A model generated the notes under the pieces. The model was not told the origin of the DNA and ran no database searches. It saw nothing but the letters and a program-made list of their open reading frames with translations. A DNA stretch of 53,127 nt from a virus: positions 1-53,127 of the IMG/VR virus record IMGVR_UViG_3300044675_006021; one strand, given 5' to 3'. The stretch's first letter is position 1; each line of letters starts with the position of its first letter. Positions 2,439 through 51,524 of this stretch are shown one piece after another. A program made the position numbers and the translations under genes.

Positions 2439-2445
2439 GAAATTG

Positions 2446-2453
2446 TCTAAATA
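2446..2453 (+). promoter_or_regulatory. T4-type late promoter (TCTAAATA) for the baseplate operon
   Basis: Plus-strand TCTAAATA, the other arm of the divergent inverted repeat. It stands 7 bases before the ATG at 2461, with no Shine-Dalgarno sequence between. Confidence 0.7.
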
Positions 2454-2460
2454 TTTACAT

Positions 2461-3276
2461 ATGGCCTATTTCTACAAATATCCAACGGGCAGTGCAGCAG
2501 ACGAACAACCTATGTGGTTGAATTTTTATGCTGCAAACTATTCATTAATTGATACGGATAGAACTCGATCAGGGGTCATCAGCCGTTCCTTCGCTCATTT
2601 GCAGCTACCGATGCCAAAGGAACCGGGTTACCAAATAGCACACGAATATGGTGAAAGTAATAACAATCCGGTAGGCCCGGTTCTCAGTGCAGCTGGTATC
2701 GCCAATGCCGGTGGTGGCCTAAAAGGTACGCTTAATGTCTTAAAAAGAACCCTGCAACCCGCTACTTTTTACTGGGAACGTATGTTTGCTACTTCAACTT
2801 TCAGACGTTTTAGCAACATTGCGGAATATACTATGGTAAGTGAAGGAAGAAAACGGTATTTTTTCCAATATGTTTTTACGCCCAAAAATGAAAGAGAAAC
2901 AATTGAAGTCGAAAGTATCGTTGGAACTTTTAGAAAAGCATCATATCCAACTGTAGCTTCAGGGCTACCAGAAAGATCCTATCCACAAAATTTGTGGTGC
3001 ATTCAAGCAACCCCAGGAAATCAAACACCGCTGGGTGGATCGGATCCATTTAATCTTACTGCAAACTGGCTCGGTGAACCATTGGTGTGCGTACTGGAAA
3101 CAGTAAAGGTAGAAAAAAATGACGCAAGCGATCCCATAATTCGCTACTTGCCAAACGGAGCGTCTTCGCTGACTCTCCTTGGCCTCTATTTTACGGAATT
3201 TGAAACCGGCTCTTATGTTCCAGAGTGGAATGCACTCTGGTCAAAATCAGAAATATCTTCATATTACTTAACTTAA
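2461..3276 (+). CDS. gp48: Baseplate tail tube cap/initiator gp48/gp54
   Basis: The 271-residue product shows the gp48/gp54 family pattern: an early LQLPMP segment, a Gly/Ala-rich middle, then FSNIAEYTMVSEGRKRYFFQYVFTPKNERE and IVGTFRKASYP, followed by a strand-rich end. In T4 these proteins (364 and 320 residues) cap the hub and start tube polymerisation. A TTG at 2443 is in frame, but it overlaps the late promoter box, so I take ATG 2461 (MAYFYKYPTG). First gene of the plus-strand baseplate operon, 1 base before gp53. I cannot tell whether it is closer to gp48 or gp54. Confidence 0.75.
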   Translation: MAYFYKYPTGSAADEQPMWLNFYAANYSLIDTDRTRSGVISRSFAHLQLPMPKEPGYQIAHEYGESNNNPVGPVLSAAGIANAGGGLKGTLNVLKRTLQPATFYWERMFATSTFRRFSNIAEYTMVSEGRKRYFFQYVFTPKNERETIEVESIVGTFRKASYPTVASGLPERSYPQNLWCIQATPGNQTPLGGSDPFNLTANWLGEPLVCVLETVKVEKNDASDPIIRYLPNGASSLTLLGLYFTEFETGSYVPEWNALWSKSEISSYYLT

Positions 3277-3277
3277 A

Positions 3278-4123
3278 ATGAAATTTTTTACTAATCTACC
3301 AAAAACAACTTTTGCAAGCACAATCGGTAATTTTACAATTTCTGATTTTTTTACCTACTTGGACGTGGACAATACCCAAGTACAGGAAGCAGCTGTTGCT
3401 GTTGATGATAAAACGACTTTAGTAGAAGCTGCAGTAACGGTTTACCAAGATCCAAATGCGTTTTGGGCATTTGTTGCTGCTAGCAATACAGTAAATCCAT
3501 TTGCGCTTTTAGATATAAACAGCAATCTTTTTACAAAAAATACAGAAGATAAAATTAACCTTACTCTTTTACCCGGTCCTACATCGGTTACAGGGGGAAC
3601 GGCATTTCCAGCTGGAAGTCTAATAGTGCCTTATTCGGCCAATACCGGATTTACCTTTAATTCTGGTTATACCGGCAACTTTAATATAAGTGGACCATTT
3701 GCAGTAATAGAGCAATCATCATTTTATGATGGAAATATGGTAATAAGCGGTCAGGTTGGCGGAACACAAGATTTTATAATTGTTGGAGCCACGTCAGAGC
3801 GAGTTACGGTTATCCAAAAAAACTTTGATGGGTCATTTACTTGGGCTGGCTCATATTATACTGGAAACAAAAAAACGTATTCTAATAAAGTTGTTTATCA
3901 GTCTTTGAATAAAGATGGTAAAAAAATATTTAAAGAACTAGTTTCATCCAACCCAACAATCGATCAATACTTACCAATTTCAACACCAATTGGCGGTTCT
4001 ACCGCTTATACTCCTACGACGGCTCTAGATAATATTGACGATCAGACAAAAGAAATACAAGCATATATACCAGCACAGATAGGTTTGATACAGTCCTCAT
4101 TTATAACAGCTACACACAGATAA
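3278..4123 (+). CDS. gp53: Baseplate wedge protein gp53
   Basis: 281 residues. The N-terminal third matches the T4 gp53 pattern, a LysM-like fold: TLVEAAVTVYQDPNAFWAF followed by AASNTVNPFALL (about residues 47-80). gp53 holds neighbouring baseplate wedges together. The T4 protein has 196 residues. The extra length here comes from a Gly/Thr-rich beta segment (about residues 95-190) that looks like an inserted domain. The tail (TKEIQAYIPAQIG) is typical of a wedge connector. It lies 1 base after gp48 and 1 base before the hub gene. Confidence comes from both the N-terminal pattern and the position. Confidence 0.75.
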   Translation: MKFFTNLPKTTFASTIGNFTISDFFTYLDVDNTQVQEAAVAVDDKTTLVEAAVTVYQDPNAFWAFVAASNTVNPFALLDINSNLFTKNTEDKINLTLLPGPTSVTGGTAFPAGSLIVPYSANTGFTFNSGYTGNFNISGPFAVIEQSSFYDGNMVISGQVGGTQDFIIVGATSERVTVIQKNFDGSFTWAGSYYTGNKKTYSNKVVYQSLNKDGKKIFKELVSSNPTIDQYLPISTPIGGSTAYTPTTALDNIDDQTKEIQAYIPAQIGLIQSSFITATHR

Positions 4124-4124
4124 T

Positions 4125-6161
4125 ATGCCAGCTCCTCCAACATTTCCAAAATTTAATCCCGCGTATTCAACAATACGTTTTATTAGACTTGGTACGCTAG
4201 TTATCAATAAACAAAATAAAGAATGTAGATTTGAACGTTTGGAAATGGTTGAAAGCATAAATGAAATATTTCCAAGTGGAAGTATTGTTGTAACAGACCT
4301 AAAAGATATAGTTTCATACATTGGAGCAAGTTCAATAGATTATATTGAAATTGAATTTTTTGATGGAAAAGTTATTTTTGGAGATATTACCAGCGTTTCT
4401 TACATAGATAACGCCGCGTCTGATAATGAAACAACAACTGTTGCAATTAATTTTACAAATTCTTATTACAAATATTTTTCAAATAATTCAATAATTAATT
4501 TATTGGGCTATAAAAAACCAGTTGTATTTTCAATTAATGAATTGGTAACGCTATTGCGTACCTGGACATTTGGCTCGGCTCCTGGTTCAGGATATCAAGA
4601 TTTTGCTTCAAACTTTTTCCTATATCGTCCAAATATTCCTTATATGTCTGGAGATGAAACGCAGCCAGGAAATGCTCTCGAATTTATAAAGTATCTAACA
4701 AATGGTGCTGTAGACGAGGCCGGAGAACCAAACTTTTTCTTTTGGACCACTTTTGGTGGTGGCGTAAACTTTAAATCATTTAAAAGAAATCCAGCCGCAG
4801 ATTGTTCTTTTACAACGATAAATGCGGATTACCGCAATATAGCAGTATATGATAATGAAGCTGTTATACAGCGTTTGTCTGACAGAAAGGTGTACCGTAA
4901 AGCATATTTTGCTGCTACGAGCCCAGCTTATCAATGGATTTCTAAAAACTATTACTATATCAGAAAAACACCAAAATACTTGGATGTTCTTCCAAAAATA
5001 AAAATTGACCCATCATTGACTGGAACTGCATTGGATGAAGCTATGGCAGAAGCTGCAGCACAGACAGAAAAGGAAGCAACTAAAAATTTAATGTTTCATT
5101 TTCAAGATGATGGACAAAAATACAACATTGATGTTGTTACTGTAGATGGCAGAGGCACTATTGCACCTAAAGGTGGAGATGCTATACCATATGAAAAGGA
5201 TTGGGGTTACTTTGATGGTAAGGTTCCTACAAATACACAATCTGTAACAAATCTTTTAAGTAATCAATATGGAACAAATTTAAATTATGCTGGTTTAAAT
5301 TTTATGGGAGAAACTGGGTATATGCCTTTCTTGGATAGCCCAGACATGTGGAAAAATATGTTTGATTTGACACCAATACATCCCCATTATCCAGATGAAG
5401 GAAGCTTGTCGGCTACCAGTCCAGTACCATGCAGTGGTGGCGGTAGTGTCGGTATCGATGGCAAGGATACCAATCTCCAGCACATAATGGATATCCGATA
5501 TAAATCATTCATTGATAGCATTTCTTCAATCTCAGCAGACAGGGTATCTCAAATAAGAGACATAGAAACTCAAAACTTTGTACTTTACTCACTTTGTTGC
5601 ATGGGTAAAAAAGAGGATTGTTTCTTTGCTGTGTTACAAAGATATGAACCGGATTCAGCATATTACGGCACAACAGGGGCATCGGGTGGTTCTGGTGGAA
5701 CTGCAGGAGCTGGATTAACTCTACCCATGGGTGCTAAAATGTATCGTTATAAATGGAATAAAATAAATTTTGATTCCGGAACTACAGGTAGCTCAGGAGG
5801 AACCGGGTCAACTGGAGGGATGGGCGGATCGAGTGGTTCCTCTGGTGCTACTGGTTCTTATCTTGTACACCAATTAGAAAAATGGTCTCTTGATCCTACA
5901 GTTAAGTCAAATAATACACAAGATAGCACATGGGCCATTAATCTAAATGAAAGAGGTTTGAGTGGAAACGTTTTGCCACCGGGATGGGTTGTAAGCAGCA
6001 CAGGGAATTTTAAATATCGTCCTATAGGTGCATCTGGTTCTAGTAGCTTCAACGCTTCTGGAAATATATTTCACATTGCCAGAATTTGCGTTGAAACTGT
6101 GGATGGTAATAATCAATTGGCGTATTTTTGGGCCGAAAATACAGTGGATGGAGATTGCTGA
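4125..6161 (+). CDS. Baseplate hub protein, N-terminal part (gp27-like, split)
   Basis: 678 residues. The first 240 residues have the layout of contractile-tail hub proteins (gp27/gpD type): strand-rich segments YIEIEFFDGKVIFGDITSVSY and TTTVAINFTNSYYKYFSN, then LLRTWTFG and a segment resembling the IPYMS...ALEFIKYL region that joins the two tube-like domains. Later residues are unusual: two Gly/Ser/Thr linkers (about residues 515-530 and 552-580) and a Cys pair in LYSLCCMGKKEDC. The frame ends in TGATG, where the stop overlaps the start of the next gene. That gene supplies what looks like the missing C-terminal hub domain. Homology is inferred from pattern and position. Confidence 0.55.
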   Translation: MPAPPTFPKFNPAYSTIRFIRLGTLVINKQNKECRFERLEMVESINEIFPSGSIVVTDLKDIVSYIGASSIDYIEIEFFDGKVIFGDITSVSYIDNAASDNETTTVAINFTNSYYKYFSNNSIINLLGYKKPVVFSINELVTLLRTWTFGSAPGSGYQDFASNFFLYRPNIPYMSGDETQPGNALEFIKYLTNGAVDEAGEPNFFFWTTFGGGVNFKSFKRNPAADCSFTTINADYRNIAVYDNEAVIQRLSDRKVYRKAYFAATSPAYQWISKNYYYIRKTPKYLDVLPKIKIDPSLTGTALDEAMAEAAAQTEKEATKNLMFHFQDDGQKYNIDVVTVDGRGTIAPKGGDAIPYEKDWGYFDGKVPTNTQSVTNLLSNQYGTNLNYAGLNFMGETGYMPFLDSPDMWKNMFDLTPIHPHYPDEGSLSATSPVPCSGGGSVGIDGKDTNLQHIMDIRYKSFIDSISSISADRVSQIRDIETQNFVLYSLCCMGKKEDCFFAVLQRYEPDSAYYGTTGASGGSGGTAGAGLTLPMGAKMYRYKWNKINFDSGTTGSSGGTGSTGGMGGSSGSSGATGSYLVHQLEKWSLDPTVKSNNTQDSTWAINLNERGLSGNVLPPGWVVSSTGNFKYRPIGASGSSSFNASGNIFHIARICVETVDGNNQLAYFWAENTVDGDC

Positions 6162-6973
6162 TGGGAAAACAGATAATAACATATGGTACAAATTACTCAC
6201 AACATGCACTTTATACTGTTAATAGTAGGGGTGCATATGAATGTGCAAATGCAAAAATTACAAGAGGATATACCTCAATCCCATCAAATGTACAAGATTG
6301 CTTAGACAGATTTCCAGAAATAAAGGCAATTGCAGAAGCAGTTGGATTTTATTCTCCTCCGGAAGGTAGCTCGGGCTCATCTGGTGGTTCTGGAGCATCT
6401 GGCGGTAGTGGTGGAAATGGCGGTGGTGTAAATCTTTGGACCGGTAATGTTCCGGTTCCCGCGTTTAATACCAGTAATCCAGAAGATTTATATTTTGAAA
6501 AATCTTCTTCAGAATGTGGATATGTTAATGATGACCCAAATTTGGGCCCCGATTGGATGGGCTGCTTATGGGGAACCCCTTCTGCACCGTATAGCTGCAC
6601 ATGCCCCGAAGTTAGACCAAATTACGAAGCTTACATAAAACACAGATTAAATGTTGCTTCATTCTGGAATACACCAGTAGAAACACCGGTAAAGCGTGCT
6701 GAATTTTTAGATGCTTTACAATATGGAAGAAAAATAGATGTAACAATAGCTGGTGATTTTAATCTTAAAGTGGGGCAAGTCGTAAATATTAGATTAAATG
6801 GAATTAGTGGTTACCCCTATTCATCCAGCAATTCATTTTTAAATGGTTTATTTTACATAATTGCAATAAAGCACGTTGTTACAAATTCTGGAACACATGA
6901 AACGGCGTTGTCTTTGTCTACGATAGCATCGGATTACTCATCTTTTGGTGCAGTAGGCCCAGTTTACCCTTGA
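6161..6973 (+). CDS. Baseplate hub protein, C-terminal part (gp27-like, split)
   Basis: 270 residues from ATG 6161, which overlaps the previous stop (TGATG). An upstream in-frame ATG at 6128 lies inside the preceding gene and is less likely. The C-terminal 80 residues (GRKIDVTIAGDFNLKVGQVVN, GLFYIIAIKHVV, THETALSLSTIA) match the closing beta-barrel of gp27-like hubs, where a NFNLTPG-type strand precedes the VIHEL-type strand. Before it come a 21-residue Gly/Ser/Asn linker (about 68-88) and a Cys-rich patch (ECGY, GCLWG, SCTCPE; five Cys in about 40 residues) that could bind metal. With the gene before it, this probably makes one hub from two chains. Confidence 0.55.
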   Translation: MGKQIITYGTNYSQHALYTVNSRGAYECANAKITRGYTSIPSNVQDCLDRFPEIKAIAEAVGFYSPPEGSSGSSGGSGASGGSGGNGGGVNLWTGNVPVPAFNTSNPEDLYFEKSSSECGYVNDDPNLGPDWMGCLWGTPSAPYSCTCPEVRPNYEAYIKHRLNVASFWNTPVETPVKRAEFLDALQYGRKIDVTIAGDFNLKVGQVVNIRLNGISGYPYSSSNSFLNGLFYIIAIKHVVTNSGTHETALSLSTIASDYSSFGAVGPVYP

Positions 6974-6986: not shown

Positions 6987-7367
6987 ATGGGCACTAAAGA
7001 TTTTTCTATTCTTTTGGAAAAAGTAAGCGTAACTGATACAAAAAAGGATATCAGTTTGGTTACCGGTTTTAACGCTTACGCACAGTACATAGAAGTCGTG
7101 TGCAAAACCCAAAAAGGTGAACTCGTGTCAGACATGAACTTGGGTTCAAATTATTATGAATATATCTTTAATGGTCAGGCTGACCTGCCCGCATTACAAA
7201 ATTCGATGGCGGGATATATTCAGGCCGTAATACCTAAAGTAGCAAATGTTAAAGTTATCACACAATATTCTTCCGCAAGTCAATTTCAATTTAATGTTTA
7301 TTATTCAGTATCGGACGGGATAAACTCACAAACCAATAATAGTACTTTTGTCGAGGTCGAAATCTAA
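6987..7367 (+). CDS. gp25: Baseplate wedge protein gp25
   Basis: 126 residues, close to T4 gp25 (132). It has the family hallmark GELVSDMNLGSNYYEYIFN (about residues 42-60) and the C-terminal VYYSVSDG.....TFVEVEI strands of the GpW/Gp25 fold. gp25 sits at the inner baseplate, where its fold copies a sheath-subunit handshake domain and primes sheath polymerisation. Its start follows a perfect late promoter by 5 bases. Its stop overlaps the start of gp6 by one base (TAATG), consistent with the wedge operon gp25-gp6-gp7. Confidence 0.92.
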   Translation: MGTKDFSILLEKVSVTDTKKDISLVTGFNAYAQYIEVVCKTQKGELVSDMNLGSNYYEYIFNGQADLPALQNSMAGYIQAVIPKVANVKVITQYSSASQFQFNVYYSVSDGINSQTNNSTFVEVEI

Positions 7368-9083: not shown

Positions 9084-9536
9084 ATGTTTAAAAAGATGAT
9101 CATGTTTGCCTCATCCCTCGCTTCACGGGGGCTTGGCAATAAAAAAACAGATATTGAAACAAAAAAACTACGCGTTCTATCCTGTTTTGGTGGAATAGAG
9201 GATATTCCACCATGCCCATATTTAATACAAAGCAGGGTGGACCAGTCAAAGCATTACTGTGGGAAGTGCGGCTGCGGTGATAAAAAAATGACTTGGTTAA
9301 TGACTAATGAGGAAGATTACTCCAAATTAGATTTTCCAGTATTGAATTGCCCCATCAAGATGCCTGGATTTAGCAACTATGATCCTAATTTTGTAAGTCC
9401 AGAAATAAAAGTCAGAAAAGAAAGCATAGAATCACTAGATCCAGAAAAACTGAATTTAATTCAGGTAACTTTGGGTGCCAGTGAAGAAAAAGAAAAAATT
9501 ATAGCCGAGGTTACCAAAATAACTAAGAATACATAA
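9084..9536 (+). CDS. Small Cys-rich, probably zinc-binding protein
   Basis: 150 residues of unknown function. Cysteines cluster as CPYL, HYCGKCGCGDK and LNCPIKMPG (about residues 44-90), the spacing of a zinc ribbon or knuckle. The N-terminal 35 residues are basic and the C-terminal 50 are charged and probably helical. It lies between wedge and neck genes, 5 bases after the previous stop. Its TAA stop is part of the late promoter of gp13. It may be a late virion-assembly or structural accessory, but the sequence does not show which. Confidence 0.65.
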   Translation: MFKKMIMFASSLASRGLGNKKTDIETKKLRVLSCFGGIEDIPPCPYLIQSRVDQSKHYCGKCGCGDKKMTWLMTNEEDYSKLDFPVLNCPIKMPGFSNYDPNFVSPEIKVRKESIESLDPEKLNLIQVTLGASEEKEKIIAEVTKITKNT

Positions 9537-13854: not shown

Positions 13855-15147
13855 ATGCCATCACTCAGCTCTTTTATCAGCACAAACCAATATAATAAAG
13901 AAAGTACTACAATTCCTCTATTGGGAGGAATGCAGCTGGGCTCAACATACGCTGGCGTTACTTTTAATGGTGCTGGTGTGGCAATAACCGATCCAGGTGG
14001 CTTATTTGGATGGCTTGTTTATTCCAGATACACAAGATATAGTCCACCAAAAGGCGGAACAGCTGACAAATATATTGTTTATACCAACCCTTCTGATTTA
14101 GTTGGCGATCTCAATAAGCTTGGAAGCATTCCAAAATGTTTAATAAGTGATCAAAATAGCGGTGGAACTTATGGATTTTTTGAAAATATTGGTGTTTTTA
14201 ACAATGTTATTCGTCTAAAACCATTACAAAATGGACAAGATTTCTTGTATGCAATACACTATCTCGCATACGGCGGTCAATTAATCTTAACAGGCGGTCC
14301 CCAAGGATTTGACCAATATCAAAACGATACTAATAAGTCTCTTGATGTTATCATAGATACTGTTGGTACGACATCAAATGCCCGGTGGTTAATCGATCAA
14401 CCCAATACAGTTGGTATTTTTCCAACGATAACTGTTGGTGGTTTAACCGGAGCAGGATACACCATGGCAGATTTTGCTACGCTTCTAGGTAGCACAACCT
14501 ATCTTAGCGGGACAACTGTAGCAAATAGAATTTTTAATGTCTGTGGTGTAAAGAGAGTTAATCTTGCAGACACTACAACGCTTTTGGCAAACAGTAAAAT
14601 TAGTTACGATTTGAGTGCTGTTTCCGACGTTGGTGGCTTCTTTACTCGGTCAAAGAATAGAAACCAATTGTATTTGACGGTTGCAGGTGTTAGACTTTCT
14701 ACCGTTTTGAACGGTAGTATAACTAATACCGTCGATTGGCAAGATTCTCTTAAAGATGCTTTGCGTTTAAATCGCGTAAACTTCTTTGTAAACAACATCC
14801 CAAAGTTTTTGGGCGGTGATGTTGTCGGTGCTACATCTGGAGGGCCAGTAACCCAAGAAGAGAGAATTGGTGTATCAAAACTCAAATCAGCTATTGGAAA
14901 TGATTTGAACAAAATTGGGTTAAAATATCTGTTCGAACCCAATAATGCAACCACAAGAGCCAGAGTTACTACGGAAATGCGAACAGCAATGAATAAGTAC
15001 TCATCCTTCGTATTTCCGGCATCTACTCAGATAATTTGCGATAGCTCAAACAATACGAATGATAGCTCGACTCTAGTGATGACGGTTGTATTCCAACCAG
15101 TTTTGAGTATTGATAGCTTTGAAGTAACAGTCAGCGTCACACCATAA
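13855..15147 (+). CDS. gp18: Tail sheath protein gp18
   Basis: 430 residues. The C-terminal half has the sheath hallmarks: KLKSAIGNDLNKIGLKYLFEPN, TRARVTTEMRTAMNKYSSF, then a CDSSNNTND segment and a final FQPVLSIDSFEVTVSVTP strand used for handshake contacts between subunits. T4 gp18 has 659 residues with two outer protease-resistant domains. This copy is about a third shorter and must lack or reduce the outer domains. The central NARWLIDQPN and ITVGGLTGAGYTMADFATLLG segments look like one retained outer domain. It is co-transcribed with the tube genes, and its stop overlaps the next ATG (TAATG). Confidence 0.87.
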   Translation: MPSLSSFISTNQYNKESTTIPLLGGMQLGSTYAGVTFNGAGVAITDPGGLFGWLVYSRYTRYSPPKGGTADKYIVYTNPSDLVGDLNKLGSIPKCLISDQNSGGTYGFFENIGVFNNVIRLKPLQNGQDFLYAIHYLAYGGQLILTGGPQGFDQYQNDTNKSLDVIIDTVGTTSNARWLIDQPNTVGIFPTITVGGLTGAGYTMADFATLLGSTTYLSGTTVANRIFNVCGVKRVNLADTTTLLANSKISYDLSAVSDVGGFFTRSKNRNQLYLTVAGVRLSTVLNGSITNTVDWQDSLKDALRLNRVNFFVNNIPKFLGGDVVGATSGGPVTQEERIGVSKLKSAIGNDLNKIGLKYLFEPNNATTRARVTTEMRTAMNKYSSFVFPASTQIICDSSNNTNDSSTLVMTVVFQPVLSIDSFEVTVSVTP

Positions 15148-15692
15148 TGGCAATAAATAATTCCAATTCCATAACAGCATTTAAAAACGGGTTCAACGGA
15201 GGAACCCGTGCAAACAGATTTATTGTTCGGCCAGATTGGCCAAATAAAATTACTGTACCGCAGGCGGATAGTAGTTTTAAGATTGTATCTGCATCTCTAC
15301 CAGCAGTTCAAATCAATACTATAGGTGTTCCCTACCGTGGGCGCATGATAACCTTCCCAGGAGACCGTCAATACAGTACTTGGGCGATTGGTATCTATGA
15401 TGACAATAACACCAGAAACATCTGGAAGGGCCTACACAGATGGGGTGAATTGATGGATGGTCACTTTACGCACTTGGTAGATGACGACGATTATGCATTT
15501 ACCAGTCTCCAGACAGATTGGTCAATCCAGCAATTGGATTTAAATGGAACTGTTTTAAAAACAATCACTTTATATAAATGCTGGCCATCCGTAGTTGGTG
15601 AAATAAATCTAAACATGGGAGAAGCTGGGTTCGTAAGTTTTAGTGCTACTTTAACGTTTGATTATATTTCCATTGACGACAATTACAATTAA
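15147..15692 (+). CDS. gp19: Tail tube protein gp19 (first copy)
   Basis: 181 residues (T4 163). Tube pattern: FKNGFNGGTRANRFIVRPDWP at the N-terminus, SASLPAVQINTIGVPYRGR, FPGDRQYSTWAIGIYDD, a helix with NIWKGLHRWGELMDGH, then IQQLDLNGTVLKTITLYKCWPS and a final FSATLTFDYISID strand. gp19 stacks in hexameric rings to form the inner tube. It is the first of two adjacent gp19-type genes, 5 bases from the second. Both keep every structural element. Confidence 0.9.
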   Translation: MAINNSNSITAFKNGFNGGTRANRFIVRPDWPNKITVPQADSSFKIVSASLPAVQINTIGVPYRGRMITFPGDRQYSTWAIGIYDDNNTRNIWKGLHRWGELMDGHFTHLVDDDDYAFTSLQTDWSIQQLDLNGTVLKTITLYKCWPSVVGEINLNMGEAGFVSFSATLTFDYISIDDNYN

Positions 15693-15697
15693 TACAA

Positions 15698-16219
15698 ATG
15701 CTAATTGATTTTAAAAACAACTTCTATGGTGGAACCAGATCAAATAGATTTCGTATCAGTGGAAATTTTCCAACTGGCGGTGGTTTTACAGACTTTCACG
15801 TAAGATCGACCACAATACCCAATGCTGCGTCCAAAACGATCAGTTATGATTATTTTGGAAGAAAGTTTCACTATCCGGGAGAAAAAGATTACGGAACTTG
15901 GTCATTTACTGCTTGGGATGATACCGGTGGGCAAAATATATGGGGCCGTTTACAAAAATGGCAAGATTTTATAAACAATCACGATACCAATATTTCTGCC
16001 CTTGATGCGGATGATTATAAAGCATATGACTGGAGAATCCAGCATTTAGACTTAAATGGCAATGCAGATCCATTAAAAGAATGGGTCTTGCATGGTTGTT
16101 GGCCCGTTGGCATCCAACAAGTTACCTTAAACATGGGCAATCCAAACACGTTAAATAGTTTTAACGTTATTATTGTGTACGACTATATTGAAATTGAAGG
16201 AATAACAGATACAAGGTGA
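15698..16219 (+). CDS. Tail tube protein gp19-like (second copy)
   Basis: 173 residues, a clear paralogue of the gene before it. The shared landmarks occur in the same order: FKNNFYGGTRSNRFRISGNFP, ISYDYFGRKFHYPGEKDYGTW, NIWGRLQKWQDFINNH, IQHLDLNGNADPLKEWVLHGCWPVG and FNVIIVYDYIEIE. Similarity is moderate, so this is an old duplication rather than a recent one. It may form mixed rings, a special ring at one end of the tube, or a neck-proximal terminator. It lies 3 bases before the portal gene and is well conserved throughout, so it is unlikely to be a decaying copy. Confidence 0.85.
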   Translation: MLIDFKNNFYGGTRSNRFRISGNFPTGGGFTDFHVRSTTIPNAASKTISYDYFGRKFHYPGEKDYGTWSFTAWDDTGGQNIWGRLQKWQDFINNHDTNISALDADDYKAYDWRIQHLDLNGNADPLKEWVLHGCWPVGIQQVTLNMGNPNTLNSFNVIIVYDYIEIEGITDTR

Positions 16220-22357: not shown

Positions 22358-22882
22358 ATGAGTTGCATTCCAAACATCAATCCACTCTACAATACGTACT
22401 TTACTTTGTTTTTTGGTAGAGGAACGAAGCAGTTTGAATTAAATTGCCAAAAAGCAAATTTGCCGGGATGCACGGTTCCCGACGTAAATCAACCAACCAT
22501 TTTGGGAACAACCATTCCAGTACCCACCATGCAATTCAACTATGAAACTTTAAATGTTGAGTTTATAGTTGATTCAAATTTAAATAACTGGAAGGCCATA
22601 TATTCTTGGATGAGAAATTTGGCAAATATTGAAAACGATGAAGAATTTAATTTAGATTACCAGGATTGGCATCACCAGGCAACCTTGACTCTCTATGATC
22701 CTTCAAACCAATGCCCTGTTTTAAATGTTAGATTTTATTACATTGTTCCGGTAAAATTAAGTGGTCTTGTTTTCCAAGTTGACAGCGCAGATGCTTTGAT
22801 TCAAAAAGCAACATGTCAGTTCAAATATTCTTACTATGATTTGTGCCCGGATGCCCCAGCAGATCTAAAAAATCAAAATTAA
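22358..22882 (+). CDS. Tail-tube-fold protein (possible tail terminator gp3 or tube accessory)
   Basis: 174 residues. The layout resembles the tube fold: an N-terminal FELNCQKANLPGC strand, TTIPVPTMQFNYETLNVEFIVDS, a helix with NNWKAIYSWMRNL (compare NIWKGLHRW in gp19), then an IVPVKLSGLVFQVDS and CQFKYSYYDL strand pair. Some cyanophage relatives, as I recall, place the tail completion gene 3 directly after gene 23, which would fit this position, but I cannot confirm homology to gp3. It has its own late promoter and a leaderless-type start. Its stop overlaps that of the convergent LSm-like gene by 4 bases. Confidence 0.55.
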   Translation: MSCIPNINPLYNTYFTLFFGRGTKQFELNCQKANLPGCTVPDVNQPTILGTTIPVPTMQFNYETLNVEFIVDSNLNNWKAIYSWMRNLANIENDEEFNLDYQDWHHQATLTLYDPSNQCPVLNVRFYYIVPVKLSGLVFQVDSADALIQKATCQFKYSYYDLCPDAPADLKNQN

Positions 22883-43558: not shown

Positions 43559-46500
43559 ATGGCAAGCACCAGCAGAACAATAAATGTAGAAGTAAACTCA
43601 ACACCTTATGCCGTTCAAGGTGCACGGGGAAATACCGGACCAACGGGACCAATTGGCCCAACAGGTCCCAGTTTCCCGCTGATGAATTTTACAGGAACTG
43701 TTGTTGTAAGTTACGGTTCCGCTTCAACGGTTACAGTAGATTCTTCTTATGGCGCCAATGCGTTTCAAATCGGAACTGTAATTAAAGTAAATTTTCCAGT
43801 TCTTGGAACGTTTCTTTATGGTGAAATTACAGCTTACGTCGGAACATCTCTGACTTTTAGACAAGTTAGTGGTACTGCAGTGGCTGCTTCTACGGCAACA
43901 TCTGGAACCATTGTTTTTGGTGCAACCTCACCAGATTTTGACACAGCTGTTCAAGTTCAGGTATCACAGGTTGCCAATGTAGGAACTTCGTATTACATTC
44001 CATTAGTTAGTGCATGTGGTGCCCAGTCCATATTTATTGATGCCAATGTCCTTCCATTAAGTTATATACCAAGTACATCATCCTTGCTATGTAATAATAT
44101 TGCTCTTGGAAATAAAAACGTTGGATTTGAATTTCTTAAAATTACAACAACTGAGATAAATTCAAATGATTTCTTTTATTTTATCTCGCAAAATGGTTTG
44201 TATTGCCAAGATAAAAATTTAGTTCAAATGGGAGACGTGACGGTTGAAAACTATGGAACCGTCATGGAAGTTTTGGGTGCAACATCTAATAACTTAGTTA
44301 AAATAAGAAATCAAGATGCTTCTGATACAACTCTAGCAATAAACAGAGATAGCGCTGATCCAAGAACCCATGCTCTTGAAATTAATAAGAGTGATGGAAA
44401 AGCCATAAAATTAATTTATAACGATGTAACAGACGGTGCACCTGATAATGTTCTACTAGAAGTAGGTAGCACGGGTTCATTTATAATTAACCCATCTGGA
44501 AGCTTAACCACAATTACAGGCGATCTATCTGTTTTGGGTGGCTATACCGGAAATCTTGTCACAAGCTTGAATAGTTTGGTTGGTGCTTTAAATCTAAGTG
44601 CTGGTCCAAATATTGGTATTACATCTGATAATGGTATAATTACTATTTCTGCGGTTGGGGGTCTAACTAGCGGAGTTTATGAATTAAATGGATTAAGTGG
44701 TGCTATAAATCTTGTTGCAGGAATGAATATCGGAATTACAGTTTCCGGTAATAATATTGAAATTTTATCAACAGGTGGCACTGGCAGTACTGGAAATACG
44801 GGTCCTACAGGACCACAGGGTCCACAAGGTAACACGGGCGCAACTGGTGAACAGGGCCCGCAAGGAAACACCGGTGCAACTGGTGAACAAGGTCCACAGG
44901 GGAACACAGGTGCAACTGGCAACCAAGGTCCTCAAGGCAATACCGGTAATACTGGGGCAACTGGCGCACCCGGAAATACTGGAGCCACTGGTGATCAAGG
45001 ACCACAGGGAAACACTGGTGCAACTGGTAATCAGGGACCACAGGGAAATACTGGTAATACTGGAGCAACTGGTTCACAAGGACCTCAAGGTAATACTGGT
45101 GCTACTGGTAATCCCGGACCACAAGGCCCCACTGGTGCAACTGGTTTAGCTGGAGATATCTTTTCTTCTACATCGACAACAGGAATTACTTTAGCTTCTA
45201 TAACTACAGGAAGTCAAGTTTCCTTAAATGTCGGTCCAGATTTAGCATATAGTCGTGTGCAGGATGTCTTAGTTGCTGCTGGTCTATCACAGTTTTTTAC
45301 AGCTACTGTAATAACATATGGCGGTGAAACTTTAACAGTACAAGTTTCTGGCGTTTGTGGATCAAACTTCTTTAATTCTTGGGATGTTAACCTTGCAGGT
45401 GCAGTTGGTCAGGCTGGACCACAGGGGCCACAAGGCAACACTGGTAATGCTGGTATACAAGGAAATACCGGTAATACTGGTGCTACAGGTGGAACAGGCC
45501 CACAAGGAAATACCGGTAATACAGGTAATACGGGTCCTACAGGAAATACTGGAAATACCGGGCTCCAAGGAAATACTGGCGCATCATATCTTGCACGAAC
45601 AACTACGCTTCAAGGCACAATAAGTGAACTCGTTAATCAAAATTTTGCTGGACCTTTCACTACGGCTAGATTCTTACCATATTCCGTTGGCGATAATGTC
45701 TTATGTTCTTCCATTTCAAACCCCACGAGGTGGATCATAGCGCCAGTAAGCGCATACAACCCGACAAATGGATCAATGACTATTTCTCCAATTTTGAGAA
45801 ATAGCGGCCCAGACGGAACTCTAATTACTAGCTGGTCTATAAATTTAACAGGCATACCAGGAATTACTGGTGCAACTGGTGCAACTGGTGCACAAGGCAA
45901 TACAGGCAATACCGGAAATACTGGACCGACCGGTCCACGCGGTAATACGGGAAATGATGGATTAAGTCCAACAAATTTCGTAGAATCTTTTAATGGATTA
46001 ACTGGTAGTGTATTTGGTGTTTCTTCAATCAATGGAGCAACGGGATCATTTCAAGTTGTAACATCTGTAAATGGTGCAACAGGAGCAGTCGAAAATGTTG
46101 CTAGACTAAATGTATCTCAAGACTTTACGTCTCAGCCTACATTTAGAAATGCGTTTACAATCCAAGCTCCATCTCCTGCGCCACTACTATCTGGTGGTCT
46201 CACTGCAAGCATAAACTTTAATACTCTATATGCACCAACACTGCAATATTACAATGAACCTTTTCAAAGTATTATTGTTCCTGCCGGAGGCGGTGCCGTA
46301 AATGTTGATCTAGCCGTTGCTCAGGTATTCTCGTTGCTTTTAAATGATAACATTACACAATTTAATATTCTGAATACTCCCCAAACAAACGACAGAACAA
46401 TTGGATTTACATTGATATTGCAGATGAATACTCCAAATAGAACTGTAAACTGGGGATCAAAAGTTCGCTGGCCAAATGGAATTGCACCTACTCTGAGCAG

Positions 46501-46594
46501 TCTACAAAAAATTGACGTGTTCTCATTCTTGACTATCGACAAGGGTGTTTCTTGGTTGGCATTTGTCGGTGGTCAAAACTTTGCAGGATCATAA
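43559..46594 (+). CDS. Large collagen-like tail fibre protein 1
   Basis: 1011 residues. Modular: a short GPTG collagen start (about 24-37), a globular beta domain (37-120), a unique domain (120-310), two beta-prism-like repeats of the [17 protein letters not shown] type (330-405), then long Gly-X-Y tracts at about 406-531, 618-675 and 769-802 rich in GNT, GAT and GPQ triplets. Globular modules (about 535-615 and 680-768) separate them. The C-terminal 200 residues ([20 protein letters not shown], then [24 protein letters not shown]) look like a trimerisation/tip domain. No receptor can be named. It lies 1 base after the previous gene. Confidence 0.85.
44776..45152 (+). repeat. Gly-X-Y (collagen-like) repeat tract
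   Basis: About 125 codons of uninterrupted G-x-x triplets, dominated by GNT, GAT, GPQ and GxQ. At DNA level units such as CCACAGGGAAACACTGGTGC recur with synonymous changes, which suggests expansion followed by drift. Confidence 0.9.
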
Positions 46595-46618: not shown

Positions 46619-49303
46619 ATGGAAGACATCATTAATGTAACAGTATATGAAACACCATATGGTGTTGCGGGGCCGCAAGGTCCACAGGGTAGCACTGGTG
46701 CAACTGGACCACAGGGTCCAGCTGGTCCAACTGGAGCACAAGGTGATCCTGGATCTGTCGGTCCACCCGGACCTCCTGGAAATATTGGTCCAGAAGGACC
46801 ACAAGGACCAGAAGGACCTATTGGAAATACTGGGCCCCAAGGTGAAATAGGCCCAACTGGACCACAGGGGAATACTGGAGCTTGTGGTGATATATACCGA
46901 AGTACATCTAACACCACTGTAAATTTAAGTGCCATTACTTTTGGTAGTGTAGTTCAACTAAATGTTGGGGCAAACTATGCTTATAGCAAAGTTCAGACAA
47001 TTTTGGTTGCAAATGATACTTCAAATTATTTTACTGGTTTGGTCAATGGATACTCTGGCCAAACACTTTCTATTCAAGTAGATGGTGTGACTGGTTCTGG
47101 TAGTTTTTCTTCTTGGGACGTAAACCTTGCTGGAGCTGTTGGGCAGGCCGGACCACAAGGTGCACAAGGCAATACCGGTGCAACAGGAGCACAGGGAAAC
47201 ACGGGAAATACTCCGACAGAATATGTCGCCAGTTTCAATGGACTTACTGGCAATGTGTTTGGTGTTCCCAGTATAAACGGCAGCACTGCTGCAGCAGAAG
47301 TAGTTTCTACATTGAATGGAATGACTGGAACAATAACAAATGTTGCTTTCAGAAATATAGGAAATACATTTAGCGTAGACCAGCAGGTAAGTTACGCAAA
47401 TAGAGTAACTACCATTTCAAATAATTCAATTGTATTCAATAATAGTCTAACAGGTATAACCAGAACTATAAACTATTCTTCTCTAGGATTAACAGTTACG
47501 CAGATTACAATACCAGGAGAAAGTGGAACAATTGCTCTAACCTCCGGTGTTGTAAGTTCTTTCAATGGAAAGACGGGCGGTATTCAAGGGCTTGAATTGG
47601 TTACTGCTGGTGCCGGAATGAGTCTTTCCGGACAAACCGGAAGCGTAATATTCCAGAATACAGGAGTACTGCGCTTCAATGGATTGTCAGGTGGAATTAC
47701 TCTTGCGGCTGGTTCAAATATTGGATTGACTACCGATGGAAATGTTATAACCATTTCTTCAACCGGTTCTTCGGGCGGAACTTCTGGTGTAGAATCATTC
47801 AACGGATTTACGGGTGCAGTAACGGGAGTAAGCAATCTAGTTGCATCAACCGGAATTTTTGTATCTGGAGCTACTGGAAATATAACTGTATCGAATACAG
47901 GTGTTAGAACTCTTTCCGGTCAAGCCAGTCAGGTATCAGTTTCTGGATCTACAGGTGATGTTATTGTTTCTTTGCCAACAAGCATAATCAATATTAATTC
48001 TATATCGGCTGAAGAAGATACCAATTTGCTTTTAAACAGCACCGACAGTCTGATACCTTCACAAAATACAACTTTGACTTTAGGTGCAGCCGGAATTACT
48101 TCTAGCAGATCAGTCTCCATCGTAGGAAACCTAAAAGTAAGTGGTTCTTATGAAGGAAGAGTTGTCAGATCCTTCAATGGAATAACCGGAGCTGTACAGG
48201 GAGTGTGTGCGGCATTTGCAGGCACCGGAATTGGTTTGTCGGGAACTACCGGAAATATAACAATATCCAACCTCGGTGTACTTTCCATGACTTTGGGAAT
48301 AGGAAGAAATGCCGCTTTAGGTCCAGGTGTTGGTGCTGGATTGAATATTTCTGGAACAACTGGAAATATTACACTAGAGTATTATGGAATTAGGAGACTC
48401 TCTACACTTCAAGGTCTAACATTGAATCCTCCTGGTGGTACTGGTATCGTCACAATAGTTAATACGGGACTGTGGAGTCTTAATGGTTTGTCTTTTGGCA
48501 ATGCAAATATTGTGGGTTCTACTGGAATATCCGTAACAGTTCCTTCTTCGACTCAGATTTCTATTGAAAATTCTGGAGTTCTTTCTGTAAACGGACAAAC
48601 TGGCGACGTTACCGTATCTAGCGCAGCATCAGGTGTAACGGATGGCAGCGCCATAATATGGAATCTGAGACCTCTTGGAAATACGACAGGTGATTTGATT
48701 GCCTATAGCGGAAACAGCTGGTCCGTAACACCAAGAGATTATGTAACAACTCCCAGTATTTGGCAGACTGTTCCGGATTCAACAAATCAATACCCCTCAT
48801 CAAAATATTCAGCTAGCGGCGATTCAGTAAATGTAAACGGTGCGTCCGGCAATGGCTTTGTATTGGGTGAATTGGTTCAAATCAGTTTATGGACACAAGA
48901 TCCAAATGCAGGAATTACTTTAAATTCCGGAACATGGTGGTTAAATTATACTGTTTATGACGATAGTTTTGGTGGAAATCCTGGAACATTGCTTGGAGCA
49001 TTTTCTGGGTTGACTTTAGTATCCGCACCCAGACACTTCCAACCTCAAGTTTCCCATTCGGGTGATGTTATGGGATTTGCCTTAAAGGTTCGTGGTTCCA
49101 CTTACAACGCCTTTGATGGGCGTGGTGGCCCTTACGGAAACACTGGATGTACGCTAGACCCCAACCAAAAGCCGTTAAACCCAAGTGATCCATGTGCTTC
49201 AAACGGTATTGAAGAATGGACCATATGTACACAGCCTGTTCGTGGATTCACTTACAATGGTTGCTATTATGCAGATGGATGCGGGGACCCAATATGCCCC
49301 TAA
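46619..49303 (+). CDS. Large collagen-like tail fibre protein 2
   Basis: 894 residues. A Gly-X-Y tract (about 16-92) follows a 15-residue N-terminus that closely matches that of fibre 1 ([10 protein letters not shown] versus [10 protein letters not shown]), probably the attachment peptide. Next come a globular module shared with fibre 1 (about 93-173), a second short collagen tract (174-199) and then many repeats of the FNGLTG / [17 protein letters not shown] type (about 200-700), which suggest a long beta-helical shaft. The last 55 residues contain seven Cys ([29 protein letters not shown]), unusual for a fibre tip. It has its own late promoter. Confidence 0.85.
46664..46894 (+). repeat. Gly-X-Y (collagen-like) repeat tract near the N-terminus of fibre 2
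   Basis: About 77 codons of G-x-x triplets, mixing GPQ, GPE, GAT and GPP. It is richer in Pro and Glu than the tract of fibre 1. A second tract of about 25 codons occurs at 47140-47215. Confidence 0.88.
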
Positions 49304-49316: not shown

Positions 49317-51524
49317 ATGTTCTTCGGAAAGAACAAAACATCCCTAAAACTGGCAAAACAGCACCCAGAACTGCTGATGGGGTGTGAGTATTTCATTGTA
49401 GAACAGGTAGAGAATCCAAAAAAAATAAAAATTGGTTCTGGTCTGACTCAATTATTACTAAAAAACTCCGATGGTGAAGAATACATCATCGAAGGAAACT
49501 CATCCAAAATCAAGGAATATTTTGTTCCAACAATGGCATTTGAATATCTAAACGGCAAATTAGTAAAAGTAAAGCACGCAGTAGGATCTCTTTTCCAAAA
49601 TCAGATTCTAAAAGAAGTTGCTCCTTGTAAGTATGATGAAAAAATTCAGCTGGGAATTGGCATCACTGAACATTATTTCATACAAAAAGACACAAACAAA
49701 GTAATAAAAGTTTATGGCAATTCCAAGCAAATTAAAAATTTGTTTGAGGAAATTGTAACTCCAAATAAACAAGCCGTCCAAATTCAACCAATACAAAATT
49801 CCGTTGGTCAAGTTTCCTTGACTGAAGATGCTTCAGGACAAAGCATTCAGATAAAGGGCGTGAAGGGAGATAAGGGTGACCGTGGTGAAGTTGGTCCACG
49901 TGGACTGGTTGGCCCAATGGGCCCAAAAGGCCCAGAAGGAGAACAAGGAGAAGTTGGCCCCCAAGGACCAAAAGGCGATAAGGGCGACAAAGGAGATGTT
50001 GGCGAACGAGGTTTGGTTGGACTGCGTGGGCCAAAGGGAGAAAAAGGTGACCGTGGAGATGCTGGACCGCAAGGCCCACAGGGACCTGATGGACCACAAG
50101 GAAAAGATGGAAAAGACGGTAAGGATGGAGCTCGGGGTCCAATCGGACTACCCGGACAAAACGGAGCTCCCGGAGCACGTGGTCCAGAAGGTGTTCCAGG
50201 AAAAGATGGTAGGGATGGAAAAGATGGAATATCACCGGTAATTTCTGCAAATTATCCTTTAATTTTAGAAGACGGTACTTTAAGTTTTGATTCTGACAAG
50301 TTTACTAAAGTACTTGATCATTTTAAAAACACAGATATTCAGAACGCCATTAATAAACTTTCCACCGCAATTCCTACAGGTGGCGGTGCGGTAGGAATCA
50401 AAGAAGATGGTAATAGGATTATTAAATCTGTAAGCGATATTAACTTTACAGGTTCTGGAGTCTCGGTTACTCGCCAAGGCAAAAATGTTACCGTTGATAT
50501 TTCCGGTGGAGGTGGACCTGGAGGCGGGGTTTCGCAAATAACGGCAGGACCCGGAATAACTTTAGATCCATCCGGTGGTACGGGTGTTGTACAAATTTCT
50601 AGTTTGGCTACTGTAAAAGGCACCCCAGGAATGTTGCAGTTGGCTGCAGCCAACGGGGATCTGGAAGTCAATACTGGTTTGATTTTGGATCCAATATCAG
50701 CTCAATTAAGTGTTCCGAACGGATTAAAAATATCTTCAGGTTTGCCAGAGTCTTATATTGAATTTGCCGATGGGACTACGCAGGGCACAGCAATGCTCCG
50801 AGGAAATACAGGTGCAACTGGACCAGCTGGACCTACCGGATCACAAGGAAGTACGGGATCAGCTGGTGCTACGGGATCTCAAGGTCCACAAGGAAATACT
50901 GGACCAGCTGGACCTACTGGTTCACAAGGTCCTCAAGGAAACACCGGTGCTACGGGATCACAAGGTCCACAAGGAAATACTGGACCAGCTGGACCTACTG
51001 GTCCCCAAGGGCCTCAAGGAAACACTGGTGCTACTGGACCAGCTGGCCCCGCTGGTGCTGGAGGAACTTATTATTATCAATTAACTGCACCAACAGGCCC
51101 CGGAATCACAATGGGGTTCCGCTGGATGGCTTCCGATACTGGTATTGAATATGTTTATATTAATGATGGTAATAGTAATCAGTGGGTTCAACCAACAAAT
51201 ACCGGAGGTTCTAGCACAACTTCAATTTCTATTCTTGCAACTACTGGTGTTACTGGTGCAACATACGCAGCTCTTTCTTCCGATTATTATATCGGAGTAA
51301 GTTACGCAGGTCCCGTTACTATAACTCTTCCAACCAACCCAGAAACAGGAAGAGAAATTGTGGTCAAGGATGAATCTGGAAATGCAGGAAACGGAGTCAA
51401 TCGTCAGATCACGATTGTCGGAGCCACTGCATCTCATAAGATAGACAATCAAAGTTCAGCAATAATAAATTTAGACAACGCTGGTCTGCATTTTATCTAC
51501 AGATCCGGCTGGAGAATAATATAA
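49317..51524 (+). CDS. Collagen-like virion protein 3 with duplicated N-terminal domain
   Basis: 735 residues. Residues 1-180 hold a domain unlike those of fibres 1 and 2, with an internal duplication ([33 protein letters not shown] and [35 protein letters not shown]). Then comes a charged collagen tract rich in GDK, GDR, GPK and GEx (about 181-311), a beta/linker region to about 494, a second, neutral collagen tract of GNT/GPA/GPT type (495-583), and a C-terminal beta domain with [24 protein letters not shown] and a Tyr/Trp-rich end typical of phage fibre tips. It starts 10 bases after a late box; the next gene overlaps its stop by one base. Confidence 0.83.
49857..50250 (+). repeat. Charged Gly-X-Y tract (GDK/GDR/GPK type)
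   Basis: About 130 codons of G-x-x triplets with Lys, Arg, Asp and Glu in most X and Y places. This composition resembles stable bacterial collagen-like proteins and differs sharply from the neutral tract later in the same gene. Confidence 0.88.
50877..51038 (+). repeat. Two tandem copies of an 81-bp collagen-coding unit
   Basis: 50877-50957 and 50958-51038 are nearly identical at DNA level, each coding nine Gly-X-Y triplets. This marks a recent in-frame duplication within the neutral tract. Confidence 0.82.

Follow-up and report, generated by a model that had tools for sequence, protein, structure and literature searches.

Two adjoining genes on the plus strand, here named A and B, lie among baseplate and tail genes in the stretch of viral DNA analysed here (the window, a 53-kb record of 53,127 nucleotides that is probably incomplete), and their parts and immediate neighbours are collected in Table 1. 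Both open reading frames are present as the preliminary description had claimed, starting at 4125 and 6161 and coupled at TGATG, where the stop of A and the start of B overlap by one base common to both frames. In the window, A and B come after the cap and gp53 genes, which is where Methylophilales phage Melnitz and Pseudomonas phage pf16 have a one-gene hub, with gp25 and gp6 found further downstream of the hub in pf16; two relatives of 136 and 137 kb share with the window the order cap, gp53, A, B, gp25, gp6. The gene at the gp53 position (3278-4123) gave no profile hit of its own. Its product has 281 aa versus 162-174 aa in pf16 and Melnitz, and thus carries, judged by length, an extension relative to the products of the genes at that position in these two phages.

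Table 1. Features of the A-B locus and its flanking genes (positions in the window)
Feature	Position	Strand	Size or evidence
Tail tube cap gene, upstream neighbour	2443..3276	+	phrog_230, E 9e-9
Probable gp53-type wedge gene	3278..4123	+	position and N-terminal motif; phrog_232 genes at this place in Melnitz and pf16
Gene A, proposed N-terminal chain of the split hub and first part of the insert	4125..6161	+	678 aa
A residues 39-329, hub-homologous (first barrel and middle domain, probably also the initial strands of the second barrel)	4239..5111	+	hhalign
A residues 330-678, first part of the insert, relatives detected in A genes only	5112..6158	+	
A residues 512-538, shorter Gly-X-Y linker	5658-5738	+	
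A residues 549-582, variable Gly-X-Y linker	5769..5870	+	
Gene B, proposed remainder of the insert and C-terminal chain of the split hub	6161..6973	+	270 aa
B residues 1-182, insert part	6161..6706	+	
B residues 64-92, variable Gly-X-Y linker	6350..6436	+	
B residues 183-254, putative C-terminal hub strands, equivalent to T4 gp27 residues ~303-360	6707..6922	+	hhalign
gp25-type wedge gene, downstream neighbour	6987..7367	+	phrog_120, E 1e-6; PF04965, E 6e-4

Homology of A and B to one hub family

In T4-like phages, the gp27-type hub links the tail tube to the spike, and its two tube-like barrels make up a pseudo-hexameric ring; type VI secretion systems possess counterparts of it. Among the PHROG profiles, B matches positions 360-422 of the 436-position family phrog_350, named 'tail protein' (E 6e-4), a family that is matched by B in 22 of 26 relatives, and A matches positions 172-211 of the same family weakly (E 0.2). 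Single-chain members of phrog_350 were gathered from viral contigs and named phages, and 14 of them were used in comparisons with hhalign. With a clade profile, A 39-329 matched these hubs with a score of 55 and E 6e-6 (a value, like the other hhalign E-values given here, for a single comparison), the reversed control scoring 17 and shuffled controls reaching at most 22-26, bar one unreproduced outlier. That outlier, a score of 135 in one of 100 whole-A alignment shuffles, did not recur in 60 further whole-A shuffles (maximum 25.5), nor did any of 100 hub-part shuffles exceed 22.2, and it was treated as a glitch.

For B, residues 183-254 matched the single-chain hubs with E 1.5e-9, and the C-terminal part by itself matched T4 gp27 with E 5.7e-7. 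A alone gave a weak match to T4 gp27 (E 0.03-0.05), and its relation to that protein rests, at the level of sequence profiles, on the single-chain hubs as a bridge, which themselves match T4 gp27 across most of the length (E 1e-10). The hub parts of A and B, when joined in silico, formed one colinear alignment with the single hubs (E 1.1e-13), and were likewise colinear with positions 49-355 of the T4 gp27 profile (E 3.6e-6). The preliminary description had seen hub-like N-terminal domains in A and a hub-like C-terminal barrel in B; the phrog_350 profiles agree with the placement of the two genes at the N- and C-terminal ends of a hub, but B would hold the last strands of the second barrel rather than a whole barrel.

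It might be supposed that A alone forms a functional hub ring with complete barrels, and that B is a separate tail-tip protein sharing a hub-like C-terminal segment, since just ~72 residues of B are hub-like and no known protein family is matched by most of B or by the latter half of A. This is decidedly unlikely, in that A 346-678 has no match to the C-terminal hub strands (E 0.3, hhalign), B has no match to the N-terminal part of the hub (residues 1-170 matching nothing with hhalign), the matches of the two chains are complementary and colinear, and B adjoins A in every one of the 71 pairs described below. Relatives with a single hub gene, for which a search had been proposed at the outset, were found and have that gene in the same position as A-B; the full-length hubs of the Melnitz type were single chains of 483-486 aa in 26 of 26 cases checked. 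An intact gp27 elsewhere, which in the preliminary description was to count against a two-chain hub, was found neither in the 53-kb window, which also yielded no second copy of A, nor in relatives of 83-137 kb searched with phrog_350, phrog_196 and PF09096, the last of these being weak evidence as it gave no signal in any control genome either.

Conservation of the split and proposed organisation of the hub

Scans of viral contigs yielded, after removal of copies, 71 distinct pairs in which both A and B are full-length. The two are separate genes in all of them and fused in none (0/71); A ends in a stop codon and B starts with ATG throughout, and a Shine-Dalgarno-like sequence (by a relaxed criterion) precedes B in 62 pairs. 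As the gap between A and B ranges from -4 to +29 nt, with the frames the same or different, the TGATG overlap is a local detail without conservation among relatives. A scan with the A-insert alignment recovered 80 loci, all of them A genes and none fused to B; in other genes the insert was not detected. Its mean identity outside the linkers is 49-57%, compared with 47-56% in the hub parts, and thus the insert is, by this measure, under a constraint similar to theirs. The phages of the split-hub clade are T4-like and uncultured, and form a large group; in named phages, tblastn with A or B gave no match, and no relative was found in the bacterial and archaeal genome contigs searched, or among PDB sequences searched with profiles of A, B and the single hubs.

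The one-base overlap of the frames in the window would also suit a single fused gene that has been broken by a sequencing error, is decaying into a pseudogene or is read with a programmed frameshift. Error and decay as causes of the break are refuted by the 71 distinct split pairs, and the differing junctions, the universal ATG, the frequent ribosome-binding-like sequence and an insert as conserved as the hub parts make this whole group of explanations very improbable.

The complementary and colinear profile matches, the gene position and the splitting of all 71 pairs together point to one hub encoded in two genes, and the two-chain hub first suggested for this locus is in this respect well supported. 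Hubs of this type are usually, though not by strict definition, one polypeptide; because A and B are two genes in 71/71 pairs, they are a split variant and not an ordinary member of the phrog_350/gp27 family. Taken as a whole, with ring and insert module included, the best explanation, which we regard as likely, is a T4 gp27-type baseplate hub permanently divided between two genes, with A encoding its N-terminal and B its C-terminal piece. In such a hub, the first tube-like barrel and the middle domain would come from A, as would the initial strands of the second barrel, whose other strands would come from B, and a trimeric ring of three A and three B chains would cap the tail tube. The ~530 residues around the break, to which A contributes its C-terminal and B its N-terminal portion, would make up an additional module, stabilised by disulfides, that holds both chains together and sits on the spike-facing side, where gp27 has residues 240-306, with the Gly-X-Y linkers acting as variable spacers inside it.

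Cysteines and glycine-rich linkers

The cysteines reported as clusters in the preliminary description are real, and eight of them are invariant in the 71 pairs (A 34, 491, 492 and 678; B 28, 47, 135 and 148). Further cysteines were gained or lost strictly together, two by two, namely A499/655 (48/48), A625/677 (24/24), B119/146 (63/63) and A518/575 (6/6), and simulated independent evolution on the tree reached the concordance of these four pairs in 0, 0, 0 and 4 of 1196-1500 runs, respectively. Such joint gain and loss is the pattern of disulfides, and suggests disulfides rather than a metal cluster. Between the chains, A588 and B99 are shared in 12 cases, with three having the cysteine in B only, a concordance reached in 2 of 1500 simulated runs; since 465 column pairs were screened, an interchain disulfide at this place is suggestive only.

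A metal-binding insertion, as had initially been envisaged, does not draw support from these pairs. It would be a module in which the invariant cysteines coordinate zinc or an iron-sulfur cluster, and the eight invariant residues, which the sequence does not assign, could still bind metal; a Cys4 site exists in an upper baseplate protein of siphophage JBD30 (PMC11445458), and iron-sulfur clusters occur in lambda gpL and a gene transfer agent, as cited in that paper. The strictly paired changes of the non-invariant cysteines argue in the other direction, as does the precedent for disulfides in the contractile baseplate of phage Milano (PMC10811340), and we consider a metal module rather unlikely.

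The Gly/Ser/Thr/Ala linkers claimed for both genes exceed shuffled controls (19 of 20 residues at A ~549-582 and B ~64-92, versus a shuffle maximum of 16), vary among relatives from 5 to 58 residues in length, and show Gly-X-Y periodicity above that of shuffles. They might form short triple helices in a trimeric ring; slippage of repeats at the DNA level is an equally good explanation.

Position of the break, the spike and related systems

The structure of T4 gp27 contains two homologous barrels, formed by residues 2-111 and by residues 207-239 plus 307-368 (PMC3004832). In the hhalign comparisons, the hub match of A stops near gp27 residue 240 and that of B starts near 303, which places the break and the ~530 extra residues, on this alignment, at residues 240-306 of T4 gp27, between the two halves of the second barrel. 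The second barrel is thus probably completed by both chains. The gp27 domains outside the ring project towards the lysozyme chamber (PMC2147016), and the insert is therefore probably close to the spike.

Gp5_OB, phrog_430 and phrog_694 were matched in Melnitz but gave no match in any split-hub record, including two of 136-137 kb, and an HMM of gp5 N-termini found nothing convincing in the split-hub clade. The missing gp5 signal may reflect either divergence or a replaced tip. If the tip were replaced, the insert would have taken over the place of a gp5-type spike, and the split hub would carry its own tip. This would fit the profile differences between Melnitz and the split-hub records, as well as the arrangement in pf16, where a gp5 gene lies between hub and gp25, a place taken here by A and B alone. 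However, no similarity to OB, lysozyme or beta-helix proteins was detected in the insert, the absence of gp5 was judged by sequence profiles that would miss a diverged spike, and gp5 is located elsewhere in the genome in Melnitz too, so that replacement of the spike is unlikely. The corresponding design, a contractile-tail hub with one ring barrel completed by a second gene product and a disulfide-linked insert replacing the gp5 spike as the cell-facing tip, is equally doubtful.

Several known systems resemble the proposed split hub in part. The single-chain phrog_350 hubs of Melnitz, pf16, Synechococcus phage S-M1 and Rhizobium phage RHph_Y68 are homologous to A and B in their N- and C-terminal parts, but consist of one chain of ~400-480 aa with 2-7 Cys, and lack the 530-residue insert. 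T4 gp27, to which the likeness is a colinear profile match via these hubs, and for B a direct match to residues ~303-360, is one chain of 391 aa, and A/B have the break and the insert in place of its 240-306 region. Gp147 of Bacillus phage 0305phi8-36 is likewise a gp27-type hub much enlarged by extra domains, but these are located at the N- and C-terminal ends of a single chain (PMC2147016). Siphophage JBD30 has a two-protein hub core (one protein in T5) with a Cys-rich second chain, but its tail is non-contractile, it has a Cys4 metal site, and its hub is not of the T4 type divided within one barrel (PMC11445458). In Agrobacterium phage Milano, disulfides link baseplate subunits of a contractile tail, but they are reported in the sheath, tube, wedges and receptor-binding parts, with no split hub (PMC10811340). 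The preliminary description had called the arrangement a new design; this holds for the proposed division of a hub within one of its barrels by a conserved break between genes, of which no T4-type example was found in the literature searched (largely without subscription journals), but not for enlarged hubs or a two-protein hub core, which have already been described in other phages. If the proposed organisation is correct, a core ring of the baseplate can accommodate both a break in its chain and an insert of very large size, stably across a whole clade, and the break would offer a natural split point for tagging and studying contractile tails. It also raises the question of how split-hub phages puncture cells without a recognisable spike.

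Other genes of the window and its relatives are recorded here as separate observations. The tail tube family phrog_45 is matched by four proteins (1444-2013 on the minus strand, 15147-15692, 15698-16219 and 22358-22882), which represent several tube-like paralogues and may include a gp3-type terminator. A small Cys-rich protein at 9084-9536 (150 aa, 6 Cys, with a CGKCGCG motif) has no family match and is conserved in two relatives. In one relative, a 1077-aa RCC1-repeat protein is encoded on the minus strand between the gp14 and gp15 genes (L255:6622-9852); neither the window nor the other relative has it in this interval. Finally, three large adjoining genes are tail fibre-like (43559-46594, 46619-49303 and 49317-51524), with Pfam collagen repeats in the first two and collagen-like PHROG matches in the last two.
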